This document shows, piece by piece, positions 9,221-51,388 of a DNA stretch of 64,000 nt. The translations under genes were made by a program, and so were the position numbers. The stretch covers positions 3,776,001-3,840,000 of the forward strand of contig NZ_AP019782.1 of assembly GCF_019669985.1 (NCBI RefSeq), read 5' to 3'. Position 1 is the stretch's first letter. Every line of letters starts with the position of its first letter. The notes under the pieces are model-generated. The model was not told where the DNA came from. It searched no databases and worked only from the letters and a program-made list of their open reading frames with translations. The DNA is from Methylogaea oryzae (GTDB lineage: Bacteria > Pseudomonadota > Gammaproteobacteria > Methylococcales > Methylococcaceae).

Positions 9221-10477
9221 ATGAATCTGACCGATCTCAAGCGTAAACCCGTACCCGAACTCATCCAGATCGCCGAGTCCCTCGAAATCGAAGGCGTCGC
9301 CCGCGCCAAGAAACAAGACCTGCTGTTCGCCATCCTCAAAAAGCTGGCCAAGAACGGCGACGACATCTACGGCGACGGCGTGCTGGAAATCCTCCCCGAC
9401 GGTTTCGGCTTCTTGCGCGGCGGCGACATGTCCTTCCAGGCCGGCCCCGACGACATCTACGTCTCCCCCAGCCAGATTCGCCGCTTCAGCTTGCGCACCG
9501 GCGACACCATCTCCGGCAAGATACGGCCGCCGAAGGACAACGAGCGCTATTTCGCCATGCTCAAGGTGGAACAGATCAACTACGAGCCGCCGGAAAACGC
9601 CAAGCACAAGATCAACTTCTCCAACCTCACCCCCCTCTTCGCCAACCAGCGCTTCGGCCTGGAACTGGGCAACGGCTCCTCGGAAGACCTCACCGCCCGC
9701 GTCATCGACCTCATCGCCCCCATCGGCAAAGGCCAGCGCGGCCTGATCGTCTCGCCGCCCAAGGCCGGCAAAACGATGATCATCCAGAACATCGCCCAGT
9801 CCATCGCCGAAAAGAATCCCGAGGTATACCTGATCGTGCTGCTCATCGACGAGCGCCCGGAAGAAGTGACGGAAATGCAGCGCGGCGTGAAAGGCGAAGT
9901 GATCTCCAGCACCTTCGACGAACCGCCGGCCCGCCACGTGCAGGTAGCGGAAATGGTCATCGAAAAGGCCAAACGCCTGGTGGAACACAAGCGCGACGTG
10001 GTGATCCTGCTGGACTCCATCACCCGCCTGGCGCGCGCCTACAACACCGTGGTGCCGTCCTCCGGCAAGGTGCTCACCGGCGGCGTGGACGCCAACGCCC
10101 TGGAACGCCCCAAGCGCTTCTTCGGCGCCGCCCGCAACATCGAAGAAGGCGGCAGCCTCACCATCATCGCCACCGCCCTGGTAGACACCGGCAGCCGCAT
10201 GGACGAAGTGATCTACGAAGAATTCAAAGGCACGGGCAACATGGAGTTGCACCTGGAGCGCAAGCTGGCGGAAAAGCGCGTCTACCCCGCCATCAACATC
10301 AACCGCTCCGGCACCCGCCGCGAAGAATACCTGGTGGAAGAAAGCGAACTGCAAAAAGCCTGGATCCTGCGCAAAATCCTCCAGCCCATGGACGAAATGG
10401 CCGCCAGCGAATTCCTGCTGGGCAAGCTGAAAGACACCAAGACCAATGCCGAATTCTTCAACATGATGAAGAAGTAG
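9221..10477 (+). CDS. rho: transcription termination factor Rho
   Basis: 418 aa, the E. coli-type compact Rho. N-terminal helix bundle ([19 protein letters not shown]), a cold-shock-like RNA-binding domain (about 50-125: [23 protein letters not shown]), Walker A PPKAGKTM, Walker [18 protein letters not shown]-loop and R-loop regions, and the [14 protein letters not shown]-terminus. It forms the hexameric RNA helicase that ends untranslated transcripts. The 146-bp leader after the trxA terminator has no other gene; Rho leaders are often autoregulated, but no specific element is obvious here. Confidence 0.98.
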
Positions 10478-10569: not shown

Positions 10570-10848
10570 CCATGCAGAGCGTGTGTATGACTCAATACCA
10601 CGCGCGCAACACCGGCTTCGACCGTGCTGCCAACGAAATCGCCGATCGCAAGCCCAGTTCGCTTTTCCGTCCCATAATCCCTGGCCTACACGCACGTAAG
10701 CCAGGGATTACAGACGCAACAACGGGTACGCCATACAATCGAACCCGCCGTAGCGCCTTTCTTGATAACAGGGCTTCGGATCGTGCTAAACGGAATCCGT
10801 ATAGTACCGGTATACCAGATTCTGTTTAATCAATTGTTAGGCAAACAT
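10570..10848 (+). repeat. cassette-locus left mosaic, copy 1 (no gene)
   Basis: A gene-free stretch between the REP and the first cassette ORF. It holds three blocks that also occur, in the same order, at 49870-50012: GTAAGCCAGGGATTACAGAC (10696-10715, 18/20 identical to the other copy), a 43-nt palindrome at 10786-10828 beginning CTAAACGGAATCCGTATAG (19 nt identical), and GTTTAATCAATTGTTAGGC (10824-10842, 17/19 identical). The last seven bases, GTTAGGC, match the integron core-site consensus GTTRRRY and stand 6 nt before the next ATG. Nothing else was recognised here. Confidence 0.7.
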
Positions 10849-11271
10849 ATGAGCTGCATACTCCGTGCTGGCGGCAAAGGCGTTGATGTGGATGCGCTGC
10901 TTAGCCAAATATCAATGGCGCCTGATTCTATTTGGCGCAGTGGTGAACAGCGTTATCCCAAGAGCGCCACAAACCAAAAGACAAATGAGCATTCTGGCGT
11001 GCGCTTTTTGGCAAGCGGTGCGGAGTTTTCGGAGTTCCGAAAGCAGATTGAAGAAGCTACAGCGTTTCTCCGTGAGAACCAGAACGATATAAGGGGCCTC
11101 ATGGCTTTTCCAGGTGTCGAAGGGGTGGTACTGGACTTTGGCGCCGAGATTCATCCGCCGGGGTGCGCATCGTTCACCTTCCCGCCTGAGCTATCCGCAA
11201 TCGCTGGAAATCTGGGCCTTTCGTTGTGCTTATCGGTGTACCCGGTGGATGAAGAGGCCGAAGATGCCTAA
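10849..11271 (+). CDS. hypothetical protein, integron-cassette ORF
   Basis: 140 aa from the ATG at 10849; longer frames run through the repeat. No family was recognised. It is a soluble, acidic alpha/beta-looking protein (SCILRAGGKGVDVDALL, FRKQIEEATAFLRENQ, LDFGAEIHPPGCASFTFP) ending DEEAEDA. Its TAA stop lies inside the GCCTAAC inverse core of the downstream attC, as is typical of compact gene cassettes, and the ATG lies 6 nt after a GTTAGGC core. Composition is less GC-rich than the flanking core genes. Function unknown. Confidence 0.7.
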   Translation: MSCILRAGGKGVDVDALLSQISMAPDSIWRSGEQRYPKSATNQKTNEHSGVRFLASGAEFSEFRKQIEEATAFLRENQNDIRGLMAFPGVEGVVLDFGAEIHPPGCASFTFPPELSAIAGNLGLSLCLSVYPVDEEAEDA

Positions 11272-11367
11272 CCATCGGCTCCAGGCGACGCACAAAGCGC
11301 GTCACCTTTTGTTCGTTCAGGCCCTGGGCGCGGCGCTTGTGCGCGCGCCTGAGCCGAAGCGTTAGAG
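11266..11367 (+). other. attC-type integron recombination site 1
   Basis: Outer cores GCCTAAC (11266-11272, RYYYAAC) and GTTAGAG (11361-11367, GTTRRRY with a last-base deviation). The arms fold on one strand: TCGGCTC-C-AGGCG on the left pairs with CGCCTGAGCCGA on the right, leaving one unpaired C, the expected extrahelical base. Further in, GCACAA/TTGTGC and GCGC also pair. The 102-nt length is within the attC range. No integrase gene is present in the window. Confidence 0.8.
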
Positions 11368-11369
11368 CC

Positions 11370-11759
11370 ATGAAGCCACGTCTTCGCAAGCACCCCAACT
11401 TGGACCATGGCCTTCGTTTGCTGAAGGTCCAATGGTGGCGATTGCCGGATTACCGTATCTGGTGGCATATGCGAGCAATTACTGGAAGAGAGCATTTGCA
11501 TGCACGGCGAAAGGATTACCGCGAGCTGCCCTGCGCCCCATTACTTCGTAGACGCAGAATTGAACTGGCAAGCTATTTCGCCGCGCAGGGATTGGCTATT
11601 GATCCGGCGCTGCTCCGACATACTCTGCCTCAAGGTCCTTCAGGGTATTGGCTTGAAAACATCTGTCCCAACCAGGTAGGGTACGCATTGCGTACCACGA
11701 TTCAAGGAACTGCAATATGCATCGCACCGGCCGTGCCACGCGAAACGGTGCACTCATGA
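11370..11759 (+). CDS. hypothetical cassette protein, C-terminus built from a REP insertion
   Basis: 129 aa; the ATG at 11370 follows the attC core (GTTAGAGCC) with no spacer. The N-terminal two thirds are basic and Trp/Arg-rich (KVQWWRLPDYRIWWHMRAITGREHLHARRKDY). No family recognised. From about residue 103 the frame enters a GTAG-headed REP palindrome (11676-11696), which encodes VGYALRT, and then runs on through non-conserved sequence. The original end of the protein is therefore probably lost and the present C-terminus is secondary. It may be a decaying gene. Confidence 0.5.
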   Translation: MKPRLRKHPNLDHGLRLLKVQWWRLPDYRIWWHMRAITGREHLHARRKDYRELPCAPLLRRRRIELASYFAAQGLAIDPALLRHTLPQGPSGYWLENICPNQVGYALRTTIQGTAICIAPAVPRETVHS

Positions 11760-11803
11760 AACCTCCGCATGTCCGTGTCGCGGAATGGTACGCGATGCGT
11801 ACC
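11676..11803. repeat. pair of REP palindromes GGTACGC-N3-GCGTACC (locus 1)
   Basis: Copy A at 11676-11696 is GTAG followed by GGTACGC-ATT-GCGTACC; copy B at 11787-11803 is GGTACGC-GAT-GCGTACC followed by CTCG. The 7-bp arms are perfect in both. A GTAG tetranucleotide before an imperfect or perfect palindrome is the signature of REP sequences mobilised by RAYT (Y1 HUH) transposases. The spacing of about 90 bp and the opposite orientation of the heads suggest a loose REPIN. Further copies lie at 51231-51287. Confidence 0.75.
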
Positions 11804-11960
11804 CTCGGATTGCCCGCCGCAACTCGTTAGCCGCATTCGAAAGTCGCGCCGTAGACTCGCACGCGCTGGAGGCAGGGAGCGAACACGTATAACATTCGCC
11901 CGACGGCGCGGGCCGGACCCGTTCCATTAGCTCCACACCAACCCACGCGGTATTCGCTTC
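11760..11960. other. intergenic region before murI
   Basis: Contains REP copy B and, at its 3' side, a GTTAGCC sequence that could be a decayed core site, then a GC-rich stretch leading to murI. A TATAAC hexamer (about 11889-11894) could be a murI -10 but lacks a good -35. No gene seen. Confidence 0.4.
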
Positions 11961-12764
11961 GTGCACCCTTGTCCCACATCCCCAATCGGCGTGTACGACT
12001 CCGGCGTAGGCGGCGTTTCCGTTTTGCGCGCGCTGCGCGCGGCCTTGCCGGACGAGTCGTATGTCTACGTCGCCGACAGCCGCCATGCGCCGTATGGCGA
12101 CCGGGATCAGGCCTTTCTGGAAGCCCGGGCGCAAGACATCTTCGGCTTTTTTGCCCATCAGCGGGTTAAGGCGGTGGTGCTGGCCTGCAATACCGTCAGC
12201 GTGGCGGCGGCGGCGTCGCTGCGTGCCGCCTATCACTTGCCCGTGGTCGCCATGGAGCCGGCCATCAAGCCGGCCACCCGGATGACGCGCTCCGGCACGG
12301 TGTTGGTGCTGGCCACGGCCTACACCATCCAAAGCCCGTCCGTCGCCCGGCTGTGCCGGACCTTCGCCGGCGAGACCCGCGTGATGCTGCAAGCCTGTCC
12401 GGGATTGGCCGAGCAAGTGGAGCGCGGGCAGTTTGCCGCCCGGTCGACTTACGAGCTGCTGGAGAGCTATGTCCGGCCCGGCGTCGACACGGGCGCCGAT
12501 ACCATCGTGCTCGGTTGCACCCATTACGCCTTCCTGGCGCAGCAGATTGCCGAGGTGGCGGGGCCCGGCGTTTCCATCATCGAACCTTCCCCGGCCATCG
12601 CCCGGCAGCTGGAATTTCGCTTGCAGGGCCTACGCGCCGAAGCCGGCGCAGGCCGGCAGCGGACGGCGTTTTATACGTCGGGCCGTGTGGAGGACCTGCG
12701 CGCTTTCCTAAGCATGGTGGGCGAGGAGGAAGCGGAAGTCTCGGCCATGGGCGATTGGACATAG
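11961..12764 (+). CDS. murI: glutamate racemase
   Basis: 267 aa with a GTG start. It has the two catalytic cysteine motifs of the cofactor-independent racemases, VVLACNTVS and VLGCTHY, plus GVYDSGVGGVSVL at the N-terminus and the DSRHAPYG substrate loop. It supplies D-glutamate for peptidoglycan. Monocistronic between the cassette island and a strong hairpin. Confidence 0.95.
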   Translation: MHPCPTSPIGVYDSGVGGVSVLRALRAALPDESYVYVADSRHAPYGDRDQAFLEARAQDIFGFFAHQRVKAVVLACNTVSVAAAASLRAAYHLPVVAMEPAIKPATRMTRSGTVLVLATAYTIQSPSVARLCRTFAGETRVMLQACPGLAEQVERGQFAARSTYELLESYVRPGVDTGADTIVLGCTHYAFLAQQIAEVAGPGVSIIEPSPAIARQLEFRLQGLRAEAGAGRQRTAFYTSGRVEDLRAFLSMVGEEEAEVSAMGDWT

Positions 12765-49693: not shown

Positions 49694-50083
49694 CAACCTG
49701 CCGCGGTAGGGAGGTGTTAGCTTCCTCGCATACCCCGCCGTTTCGCGGCTTTCGTCGAGTTACGGCATTCGCCTAAACCCGCCCTTCCGAGCCCCCACCA
49801 CTGCAAGAAGGCCCGACATACCGACCTTGCGAGCAACAGGCATCAGGCCAATGTCGGCAAATGGCGTTTGTAAGCCTGGGCTTACAGACAAGATTTTGCC
49901 CGATAGGTACACTCCGCTTTGCACGAGCATACTAAACGGAATCCGTATAGCACCGATATGCCAGATTCCGTTTAGCATAAGAAATCCTATTATGTTTAAT
50001 CAACTGTTTGGCATCGCAATTGCGTTACTGACAACCCTTTACCATGCGACCAATCTAATCTGAACCCAGCTGGAAACTAGAAT
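49694..50083 (+). repeat. cassette-locus left mosaic, copy 2 (no firm gene)
   Basis: 390 bp after holA. Contains the same three blocks as 10696-10842: GTAAGCCTGGGCTTACAGAC (49870-49889), a 44-nt palindrome with perfect 12-bp arms CTAAACGGAATC/GATTCCGTTTAG (49932-49975), and GTTTAATCAACTGTTTGGC (49994-50012). In this copy 18 bp (49976-49993) separate the palindrome from the last block. A short frame beginning MFNQLFGIAIALL (49992-50063) is probably a by-product. Nothing else recognised. Confidence 0.7.
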
Positions 50084-50479
50084 ATGGACTCAACAATATC
50101 TGACTTGCTTACTCGTCTGGCCGACATTCAGAAGTATGCCTACGACCACCACATTACCAACTATTGGATATGGGCCGGATTGGTTATTCTAAGCCTTATA
50201 TTTGTTGCACTGGGTGCAGGTGCAGCTCTGTGGATGTCGGACTCCAAATTGTCAGGCACGTTTGCCATCGTCAATGGATTAATCATCGGGTTAAATAGTG
50301 GCCTTGGCTTCGGTAACTCAGCTCAGTTCTACCGGCAGCTTGCTGCGGACGCAAAGGTCGCAATCTATGATCTTGAGAGCAACAAGACGTCAAATCAGCT
50401 CAAGAATAGCCAAGAGGTTTACCGACAGTTGCAACAGAAACTAGCGAAAGACCTCCCTGTTGGAACCGGCCCGAAGTAG
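50084..50479 (+). CDS. hypothetical small membrane protein, integron-cassette ORF
   Basis: 131 aa. Two predicted spans at about 27-51 (NYWIWAGLVILSLIFVALGAGAALW) and 60-76 (TFAIVNGLIIGLNSGLGFG), then a coiled-coil-like tail (AKVAIYDLESNKTSNQLKNSQEVYRQLQQKLAKDL). No family assigned; the pattern (two spans and a charged helix) resembles small SLATT-like or effector-type membrane proteins, but this is speculative. Base composition is clearly lower in GC than neighbours. It ends 10 bp before the attC inverse core. Confidence 0.7.
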   Translation: MDSTISDLLTRLADIQKYAYDHHITNYWIWAGLVILSLIFVALGAGAALWMSDSKLSGTFAIVNGLIIGLNSGLGFGNSAQFYRQLAADAKVAIYDLESNKTSNQLKNSQEVYRQLQQKLAKDLPVGTGPK

Positions 50480-50489
50480 ACGCCGTGAT

Positions 50490-50577
50490 GCCCAACATGG
50501 CGCTCAAGCGGAGCGCGGGGACAAGGCTTTTGAATGGAAACGTCATCGCGCCGCGCCCGCTTAGCTTTACGTTAGGA
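50490..50577 (+). other. attC-type integron recombination site 2
   Basis: Outer cores GCCCAAC (50490-50496, RYYYAAC) and GTTAGGA (50571-50577, GTTRRRY apart from the last base). The arms GCTC-AAGCGG and CCGCTTAGC pair with a single unpaired C, the extrahelical base, and GCGCGG/CCGCGC pairs beyond. 88 nt long. It separates two AT-richer ORFs, exactly as in a cassette array. Confidence 0.8.
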
Positions 50578-50587
50578 CGTCCCGGCA

Positions 50588-51220
50588 ATGTCTAGTCCAC
50601 GATTCATAGCAACTCGCAGTGATGGCAGTGATGCCACTTCAGAGTTGCTATCTTTCTCTGAAGCAATTGGCCTCGAATCAGTTGTCTCGGGCAGATATAG
50701 TTTTTTGCTCTTGCTCGAACTATTTGCCGCCGCCAAATCTGGAATGCCCCATCCTGCAAAAGTCGTGAGCCAAATTCGGGTTTTGGAGGGCGTTGAGGCA
50801 GCTAGAGGATTAAAAGCAGCCACCCAATTTAAGCACCCACCACTTCAAGGGCTCTGGCATCAACACTACCTTGAAGATGGGTTAGCGAGCATGGCTCAAA
50901 ATATCCGCAAAGGCATTGACAAATTCGGTCTTCCGTGGGTTAATCAAAAGATTGCAGACGCAAAACTCTCCGGCGAGGAGAGGTATTTCACGGAAGCTGA
51001 TGTAACGCAAATTTCACATGATGCCACTGCGTCCAATTGGGAGCGTCTTATAAACAACGAGGCTCTCACTGGTGAATGGCTTATTTTCGCTAAGCATGAA
51101 GGAAAAAACTACTATCTCAGCCTCGGAAAGCACGACAGTGGTGATGAGCTACTTCGAGCCAGGATTGATACAATTTGCCTACACCAGTTTGCTTTTTTGA
51201 AAGACATCTTAATTGGATAA
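50588..51220 (+). CDS. hypothetical protein, integron-cassette ORF
   Basis: 210 aa; the ATG follows the attC core by 10 nt. No family recognised. It appears soluble and mixed alpha/beta, with an N-terminal FIATRSDGSDATSELLSFSEAIGLESVVSG region, a central LWHQHYLEDGLASMAQNIRKGIDKFGLPWVNQKI segment and a C-terminal HEGKNYYLSLGKHDSGDELLRARID block. Strongly lower GC and different codon usage from the flanking core genes point to recent acquisition. REP palindromes lie just beyond the stop. Confidence 0.72.
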   Translation: MSSPRFIATRSDGSDATSELLSFSEAIGLESVVSGRYSFLLLLELFAAAKSGMPHPAKVVSQIRVLEGVEAARGLKAATQFKHPPLQGLWHQHYLEDGLASMAQNIRKGIDKFGLPWVNQKIADAKLSGEERYFTEADVTQISHDATASNWERLINNEALTGEWLIFAKHEGKNYYLSLGKHDSGDELLRARIDTICLHQFAFLKDILIG

Positions 51221-51388
51221 TTGCAGCCATGTAGGGTACGCACCGCGTACCTTAATCGCCGTTGAAGGTACGCCATGCGTACCCTACGGCAGCGAGTGTT
51301 TCCGCCCAATGCTAAAAATTCGGGCTAAGGGCTCGGCGCAACAAAGCCGCGCCGGATATTAGGCTGCAATCCTCCGATCCTATTCCAC
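51221..51388. other. gap holding the REPIN and a possible decayed cassette end
   Basis: After the REPIN comes GCCCAAT...ATTAGGC (about 51304-51363) with an internal CGGCGC/GCGCCG-type hairpin. It looks like a decayed attC (core GTT changed to ATT), but the arms do not pair well, so it is not called as one. Confidence 0.35.
51231..51287. repeat. REPIN: two REP palindromes in inverted orientation (locus 2)
   Basis: GTAG-GGTACGC-ACC-GCGTACC (51231-51251), a 15-bp spacer, then GGTACGC-CAT-GCGTACC-CTAC (51267-51287). Both 7-bp stems are perfect and the GTAG/CTAC heads point outward, the layout of a REPIN. The same REP occurs twice in the other cassette island. Confidence 0.85.

Follow-up and report, generated by a model that had tools for sequence, protein, structure and literature searches.

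Integrons typically carry a single attI beside intI; apart from those of class 1, attI sites have been little characterized, and IntegronFinder does not detect them (PMC9024848). In attI1, which is about 65 bp long, L-R is preceded by two direct repeats, and IntI1 is known to carry out attI x attI reactions (PMC4792948). Cassettes without an integrase are called as CALINs by IntegronFinder 2 in its default setting when two attCs are present (PMC9024848), and, as proposed by Cury et al., they may arise in three ways, namely by off-target insertion, intI loss or rearrangement (PMC8618304). Long, fusion-type IntI proteins were assigned by Nemergut et al. 2008 to clade 15, mostly from Deltaproteobacteria, in the passage of that paper cited here (PMC2426708). 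In the open-licence literature searched, we found no earlier description of a dispersed or orphan attI.

Here we analyse a cassette island, locus 1, within a window of 64 kb (C1:3776001-3840000 of a 4.02-Mb single-contig genome, G000). Our preferred reading, to which we assign a probability of about 0.82 on the basis of sequence comparison, is that locus 1 represents a remnant with two cassettes and an attI of its own at the head, and that this attI would belong to a class of integron integrases with an N-terminal extension (N-extended IntI). It appears to be one member of a family of dispersed orphan attI islands in a genome that seems to have no intact integrase left.

The cassette island between rho and murI

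The two AT-richer ORFs described in the initial annotation are present (G+C of 0.539 for ORF1 and 0.544 for ORF2, compared to 0.650 for the window), and the window is devoid of any TIGR02249 match, which agrees with the reported absence of intI from the 64 kb. The island itself is real, whereas the left ~210 bases of its reported span (10570-10782) lie outside the unit. For the ORF1 protein, a weak, sub-threshold match to DUF4279 was found and no relative among the viral contigs searched; for ORF2, the plasmid search returned no relative.

Between the ORFs lies an attC with the outer cores R'' GCCTAAC and R' GTTAGAG and the arms CGGCTC(C)AGGCG / CGCCTGAGCCG, which contain a single extrahelical C. 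Both this site and the location of the ORF1 stop codon within its inverse core (TAA at 11269-11271) were confirmed as initially proposed. The core sites had been described as GTTRRRY-type, which holds for the GTTAGGC that precedes ORF1 (10836-10842) but not fully for R', whose seventh base is G instead of the consensus Y. The fold of the site beats nearly all shuffled sequences (z of -3.6 on the + strand and -4.1 on the - strand), and an attC descriptor scored it at 15.2, with 0-1 such matches expected by chance per shuffled 64 kb. Furthermore, a covariance model (R1) was built from 19 array attCs of G010 and G108, two relatives that possess intI, belong to other genera and carry intact integrons. 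This model, which contains zero attCs from G000, assigned 30.1 bits to the site on the + strand and 17.8 bits on the - strand. In its cores, arms and extrahelical base, the site is therefore an integron cassette attC. While an attC was correctly reported between the ORFs, R1 recognized none on the 3' side of ORF2.

At the expected position of a second attC, the right end of locus 1 carries a REP-like inverted repeat, and the 3' end of ORF2 contains its GGTACGC...GCGTACC pair. It should be noted that, across the window, GGTACGC(NN)TGCGTACC pairs are confined to the right ends of its two islands (11680-11803 and 51235-51283), both expected positions of a terminal attC, with 8 strand matches compared to 0.19 expected. 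A RAYT-like transposase ORF (L038:3220-3909, assigned by eye) comes after another island of G000, the one at 858 kb.

Table 1. Coordinates of features at locus 1 and locus 2, given as positions in the window.
Feature	Position	Strand	Details
rho	9221-10477		left neighbour of locus 1
attI, N-extended IntI class (predicted)	10783..10842	+	R2 73.3 bits
ORF1, cassette 1	10849..11271	+	140 aa, no family assigned
attC of cassette 1	11266..11367	+	R'' 11266-11272, R' 11361-11367, one extrahelical C
ORF2, cassette 2	11370..11759	+	129 aa, no family assigned; 3' end inside inverted-repeat element
Inverted 20-nt repeat pair, REP-like	11678..11805	.	right end of locus 1, expected second-attC position
GTTAGCC	11826..11832	+	possible right-hand core remnant; R1 negative
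Glutamate racemase gene murI	11961-12764		right neighbour of locus 1
Locus 2 attI copy (predicted)	49929..50012	+	~24-bp internal insertion, core G^TTTGGC at 50006
Locus 2 cassette 1 ORF	50084..50479	+	131 aa, no family; hydrophobic segment by eye
Locus 2 attC	50490..50577	+	R1 68.8 bits
Locus 2 cassette 2 ORF	50588..51220	+	210 aa, no family

The element at the left boundary and its copies

The first cassette of locus 1 is preceded by an element that is shared with other islands. The shared element proper spans ~54 bp (10783-10836) and comprises a hairpin, GTGCTAAACGGAATCCGTATAGTAC, a second (direct) repeat, an L-like box, GTTTAAT, and the core G^TTAGGC, whose G at 10836 forms its right end, while TTAGGC is part of the first cassette. 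With a profile of ten copies (R2), about ten copies were located around the G000 chromosome, nearly all of them before a cassette-like ORF (at 21, 858, 1203, 2774, 2942, 3637, 3691, 3787, 3826 and 3851 kb), together with a further weak match at 3583 kb. The copy at 858 kb is a short form, and the one at 1203 kb has a degraded core without a clear G^TT. At locus 2, R2 matched the attI copy with 45.5 bits, plus 18.3 bits for its separated right part.

With the G of G^TT as the anchor point, identity among the seven full copies amounted to ~0.25 left of -53, was complete for GTGC (7/7), ranged from 0.74 to 0.84 across the element and returned to ~0.25 from about +10. The sequence to the left of the element is unrelated between the G000 copies, except for ~25 bp common to two of them. 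A comparison of 12 copies, including 3 from G010, G108 and a Betaproteobacteria metagenome-assembled genome (MAG), revealed conservation through the G and variable sequence after GTT, as would be expected if each cassette brought its own TTRRRY; in these copies, the G^TTRRRY core is joined to the first cassette. By these comparisons, the left boundary of locus 1 appears to be a conserved attI and not a random target site. An interpretation of the element as the species-type attC was rejected, as it was not scored by R1 and R2 was negative in arrays of true attCs.

Single attCs and element copies are also located together. In the whole-genome R1 search, 150 of 3469 first-look candidates were scored, so that weaker attCs may be missing; it lists one array (2544-2549 kb) and at least 6 single attCs. 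Each of the 6 single attCs listed has an element copy on the same strand no more than 2.5 kb upstream of it. With the addition of two attCs from local searches, this applies to 8 of 8, whereas 20,000 random trials averaged 0.03 such cases and never exceeded 2. Moreover, the island at 1203 kb was reached twice independently, via its attC and via the element. Downstream of the 21-kb and 3691-kb copies, R1 found no attC within 2.5 kb, and for the latter the descriptor gives a weak one.

These same two copies (L035:4445-4519 and L036:3271-3354) are two-sided palindromes with a good model match on both strands. As a separate observation, other islands carry defence-type cargo (L148:3506-4066, L034 for the 2941-kb island, and L036:2518-3243), which includes a ThsB-like TIR protein, an AAA_13 ATPase corresponding to the PADLOC candidate PDC-S06 (840 bits) and a partial PDC-M34A match.

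Association of the element with N-extended integrases

Among 369 genomes of the class, 31 contained R2 matches at E <= 0.01, with ~4 expected by chance. In several of them, a divergent intI starts ~80-130 bp from the element (L130 from G458, L131 from G483, L060, and L122 from G198). Adjacent, divergent pairs of the element and an N-extended intI were found in G000, G198 (twice), G252, G278, G286, G458 and G483, which amounts to nine pairs when L060 is counted, eight of them outside G000. Where intact, these integrases have ~470 aa, including an N-terminal extension of ~150 aa. The one that was scanned matches TIGR02249 with residues 157-466 (447 bits, compared to a cut-off of 265), whereas no Pfam family matched its first ~150 residues. 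For the extension, no usable relative was obtained by a solved-structure search or from a single-sequence AlphaFold model (mean pLDDT 54.5), and none was found among the viral contigs or phages searched. An N-extended integron integrase was found once on a plasmid, that of Ca. Thiodictyon.

The extension (query A4) was detected in 50 of the 369 genomes, and the element is present in 13 of these as well (p = 4e-5, or 1e-4 without G000). Furthermore, ~30 upstream regions of N-extended intI genes were read, and most show a palindrome, a second copy of it and then CTG^TTA. While the sequence of the repeats differs among lineages, the paired repeats co-vary within a site (9.8 of 12 for own pairs versus 8.1 for cross pairs, 0 of 2000 permutations), with attI sequences that were chosen by eye around the core. 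Ordinary attI regions lack such co-variation (7.0 versus 10.2 of 12), and in a negative control, 121 kb of mostly ordinary-intI arrays with ~20 true attCs, R2 gave no match. Since it sits upstream of and divergent from an N-extended intI in nine cases, the element is best identified as the predicted attI of the integrase class with the ~150-aa extension.

Within the N-extended intI genes themselves (L060, L163, L164, L158 and L170), codons for AIRILF/AIRNLF nearly copy the attI hairpin (GCTATACGGATTCTGTTTAGCAC in L060), with ATA used even in a GC-rich gene. A clustering of intI breakpoints at an attI-like site within the gene was considered and rejected, because the junctions, when read singly, had none in common.

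The adjacent, divergent intI seen elsewhere has a counterpart in G000 at 858 kb, where a 5' fragment of an N-extended intI (C1:858016-858360, hmm 7-122) lies beside the element copy; locus 1 has no such neighbour and thus does not combine intI, attI and cassettes in cis, as a complete integron does. At 9 of the 10 examined G000 islands, no intI remnant is present within 1.2 kb, and the link between attI and intI therefore draws on the other genomes and this one relic. The search for an intI elsewhere in the genome, suggested in the initial annotation, also revealed an ordinary intI at 1865 kb, next to ppx, that is disrupted by deletions and a stop codon, and an ordinary intI stub of ~30 codons (by eye) at ~2550 kb. 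The latter heads an array of about nine attCs (L147, C1:2543600-2549190), which appears to be a second, separate decayed integron. All intI genes of G000 thus seem to be broken, so that no known integron integrase of this genome could be expected to move the islands, which are probably frozen. A lone element copy in G010 (L047, C1:2723563), with an HXXEE-like cassette (by eye), lies near a ppx-like gene, which makes ppx a common neighbour of this copy and of the broken 1865-kb intI.

Within the family, the element was found at E <= 0.001 in 6 of 38 genomes, of which the five besides G000 carry one or two matches each. G001, from the same genus, contains no copy; its synteny with G000 is lost directly after rho and murI is missing, so that it offers no clean empty rho-murI site. 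Outside the order, an exact-pattern scan of genome contigs identified the element only in the Betaproteobacteria MAG, while two further pattern matches looked like chance. ORF1 was detected in 2 of the 151 genomes covered by the search; the second copy, in a genome of the same order, is 50% identical and located outside any cassette. Given this rarity and the patchy occurrence of the element, the islands do not behave as fixed, vertically inherited sequence, the outcome that the initial annotation had regarded as contradicting an island. In G480, G323 and G198, several copies are alike upstream of attI and different downstream, which suggests that attI was duplicated together with its upstream part. 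L179 (G480 C4, 3973-5644) contains two attI-like copies in tandem, which are separated by a cassette and a weak attC and have their upstream sequence in common.

Alternative explanations and comparison with described systems

The initial annotation proposed a CALIN or a single-cassette insertion acted on in trans. While the integrase-free cassette island it described is upheld, neither reading of its origin is the best one: locus 1 and locus 2 each have one recognizable attC, where the default CALIN call needs two, and the cassettes sit in a conserved attI common to about ten islands. An island-by-island, off-target insertion by an IntI acting in trans at attG-type secondary sites is known for IntI1 and has been proposed for CALINs (PMC8618304, PMC12444791), and it would agree with islands that lack a local integrase in a genome with broken intI genes. 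However, such targets are alike in a short core only and would have few bases in common left of the cut, whereas here a sharply bounded stretch of 54 bp is shared, and the same sequence is the predicted attI of an integrase class. We therefore regard this explanation as largely refuted and very improbable. That the element might stem from a conserved attC whose upstream cassette was lost, and represent the right half of this site, is scarcely credible, although the layout L'(GTTTAAT)-5 nt-R'(GTTAGGC) resembles a right arm and the element can fold on itself. The upstream flanks lack an R'', R1 did not recognize it (3.1 bits at 10824-10842), R2 remained empty in arrays with about 20 true attCs, and the position of the element beside intI start codons contradicts this view. 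The element is also palindromic, multicopy and sharply bounded, and other REP-like repeats and the RAYT-like ORF occur at island right ends, all of which a MITE or REP-type repeat lying beside cassettes by chance would share. We give this idea next to no credence, since the copies examined almost all stop at G^TT with a cassette ORF alongside and since, in nine cases, the element lies where the attI of an intI gene would be expected.

A different question concerns the origin of the copies. Complete N-extended integrons may have been acquired separately and have lost intI later by deletion, with selection on attI leaving only this part recognizable. The intI fragment that still accompanies the 858-kb copy, the several broken pieces of N-extended intI in G493, G398, G333 and G198, and the upstream similarity of copies in G198, G480 and G323 are in line with such decay in place. 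On the other hand, most G000 copies are devoid of any nearby intI trace, the seven full copies all end at the same base, GTGC, and the absence of copies from G001 limits the time available. We consider decay in place possible, though short of probable.

Under our preferred reading of locus 1 as a remnant headed by its own attI, IntI would have bound both the core boxes of attI and its paired palindromes, the latter perhaps via the extra N-terminal domain of the integrase, and the folded single-strand attC of an incoming cassette would have been joined to the double-stranded attI at G^TT. The constant left half of attI would then have stayed, while the TTRRRY half changed with each cassette. 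With several attI copies spread over the chromosome, one integrase may have served them in trans. Their dispersal could have proceeded in one of two ways: attI and cassette may have inserted as a unit whose left end is fixed, or complete integrons may have been acquired repeatedly and then have lost intI. A multi-port integron, in which one integrase with an extra DNA-binding domain served many dispersed attI sites, and in which the attI copies along with their cassettes had been spread by a specific process with precise boundaries, is a tentative proposal that we regard as rather doubtful.

From these results, the attI of an entire integrase class can be defined by sequence, and the integrase-free cassettes of G000 can be accounted for without off-target insertion. 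Furthermore, with ~ten attI copies in one chromosome, an IntI could in principle recombine the copies with one another, and the combination of an N-extended integrase with paired palindromes represents a testable case for the recognition of attI by its integrase.

Compared with described systems, the islands resemble CALINs (Cury et al., IntegronFinder; PMC9024848, PMC8618304) in having attC-bearing cassettes without a nearby intI, but locus 1 has one attC and a recognizable attI head that is repeated around the genome; the orphan attI islands are thus an attI-headed form beside the proposed CALIN origins. Cassettes inserted at attG (Loot et al. 2024, as cited in PMC12444791) likewise lie in the chromosome away from intI; according to that citation, however, attG comprises scattered, non-classical sites, whereas the target here is a conserved attI. 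The long IntI of clade 15 are similar in being ~120 aa over the usual length and group-conserved, a likeness drawn by length and fusion only from the cited passage (PMC2426708). Like the predicted attI described here, attI1 of class 1 measures ~55-65 bp and has two repeats before L/R and a G^TTRRRY joint, and it lies beside intI (PMC4792948); in our case, the repeats are palindromic, many copies are intI-free, and the cognate integrase has an extra N-terminal domain. The nearest published displaced attI is that of the ΔattI-type cassettes of mobile integrons, in which displaced, attI-derived sequence also still flanks cassettes (PMC12901181). There, a partial, mostly short attI replaces attC at the 3' end of a cassette within one array, whereas here a full-length attI heads separate islands.
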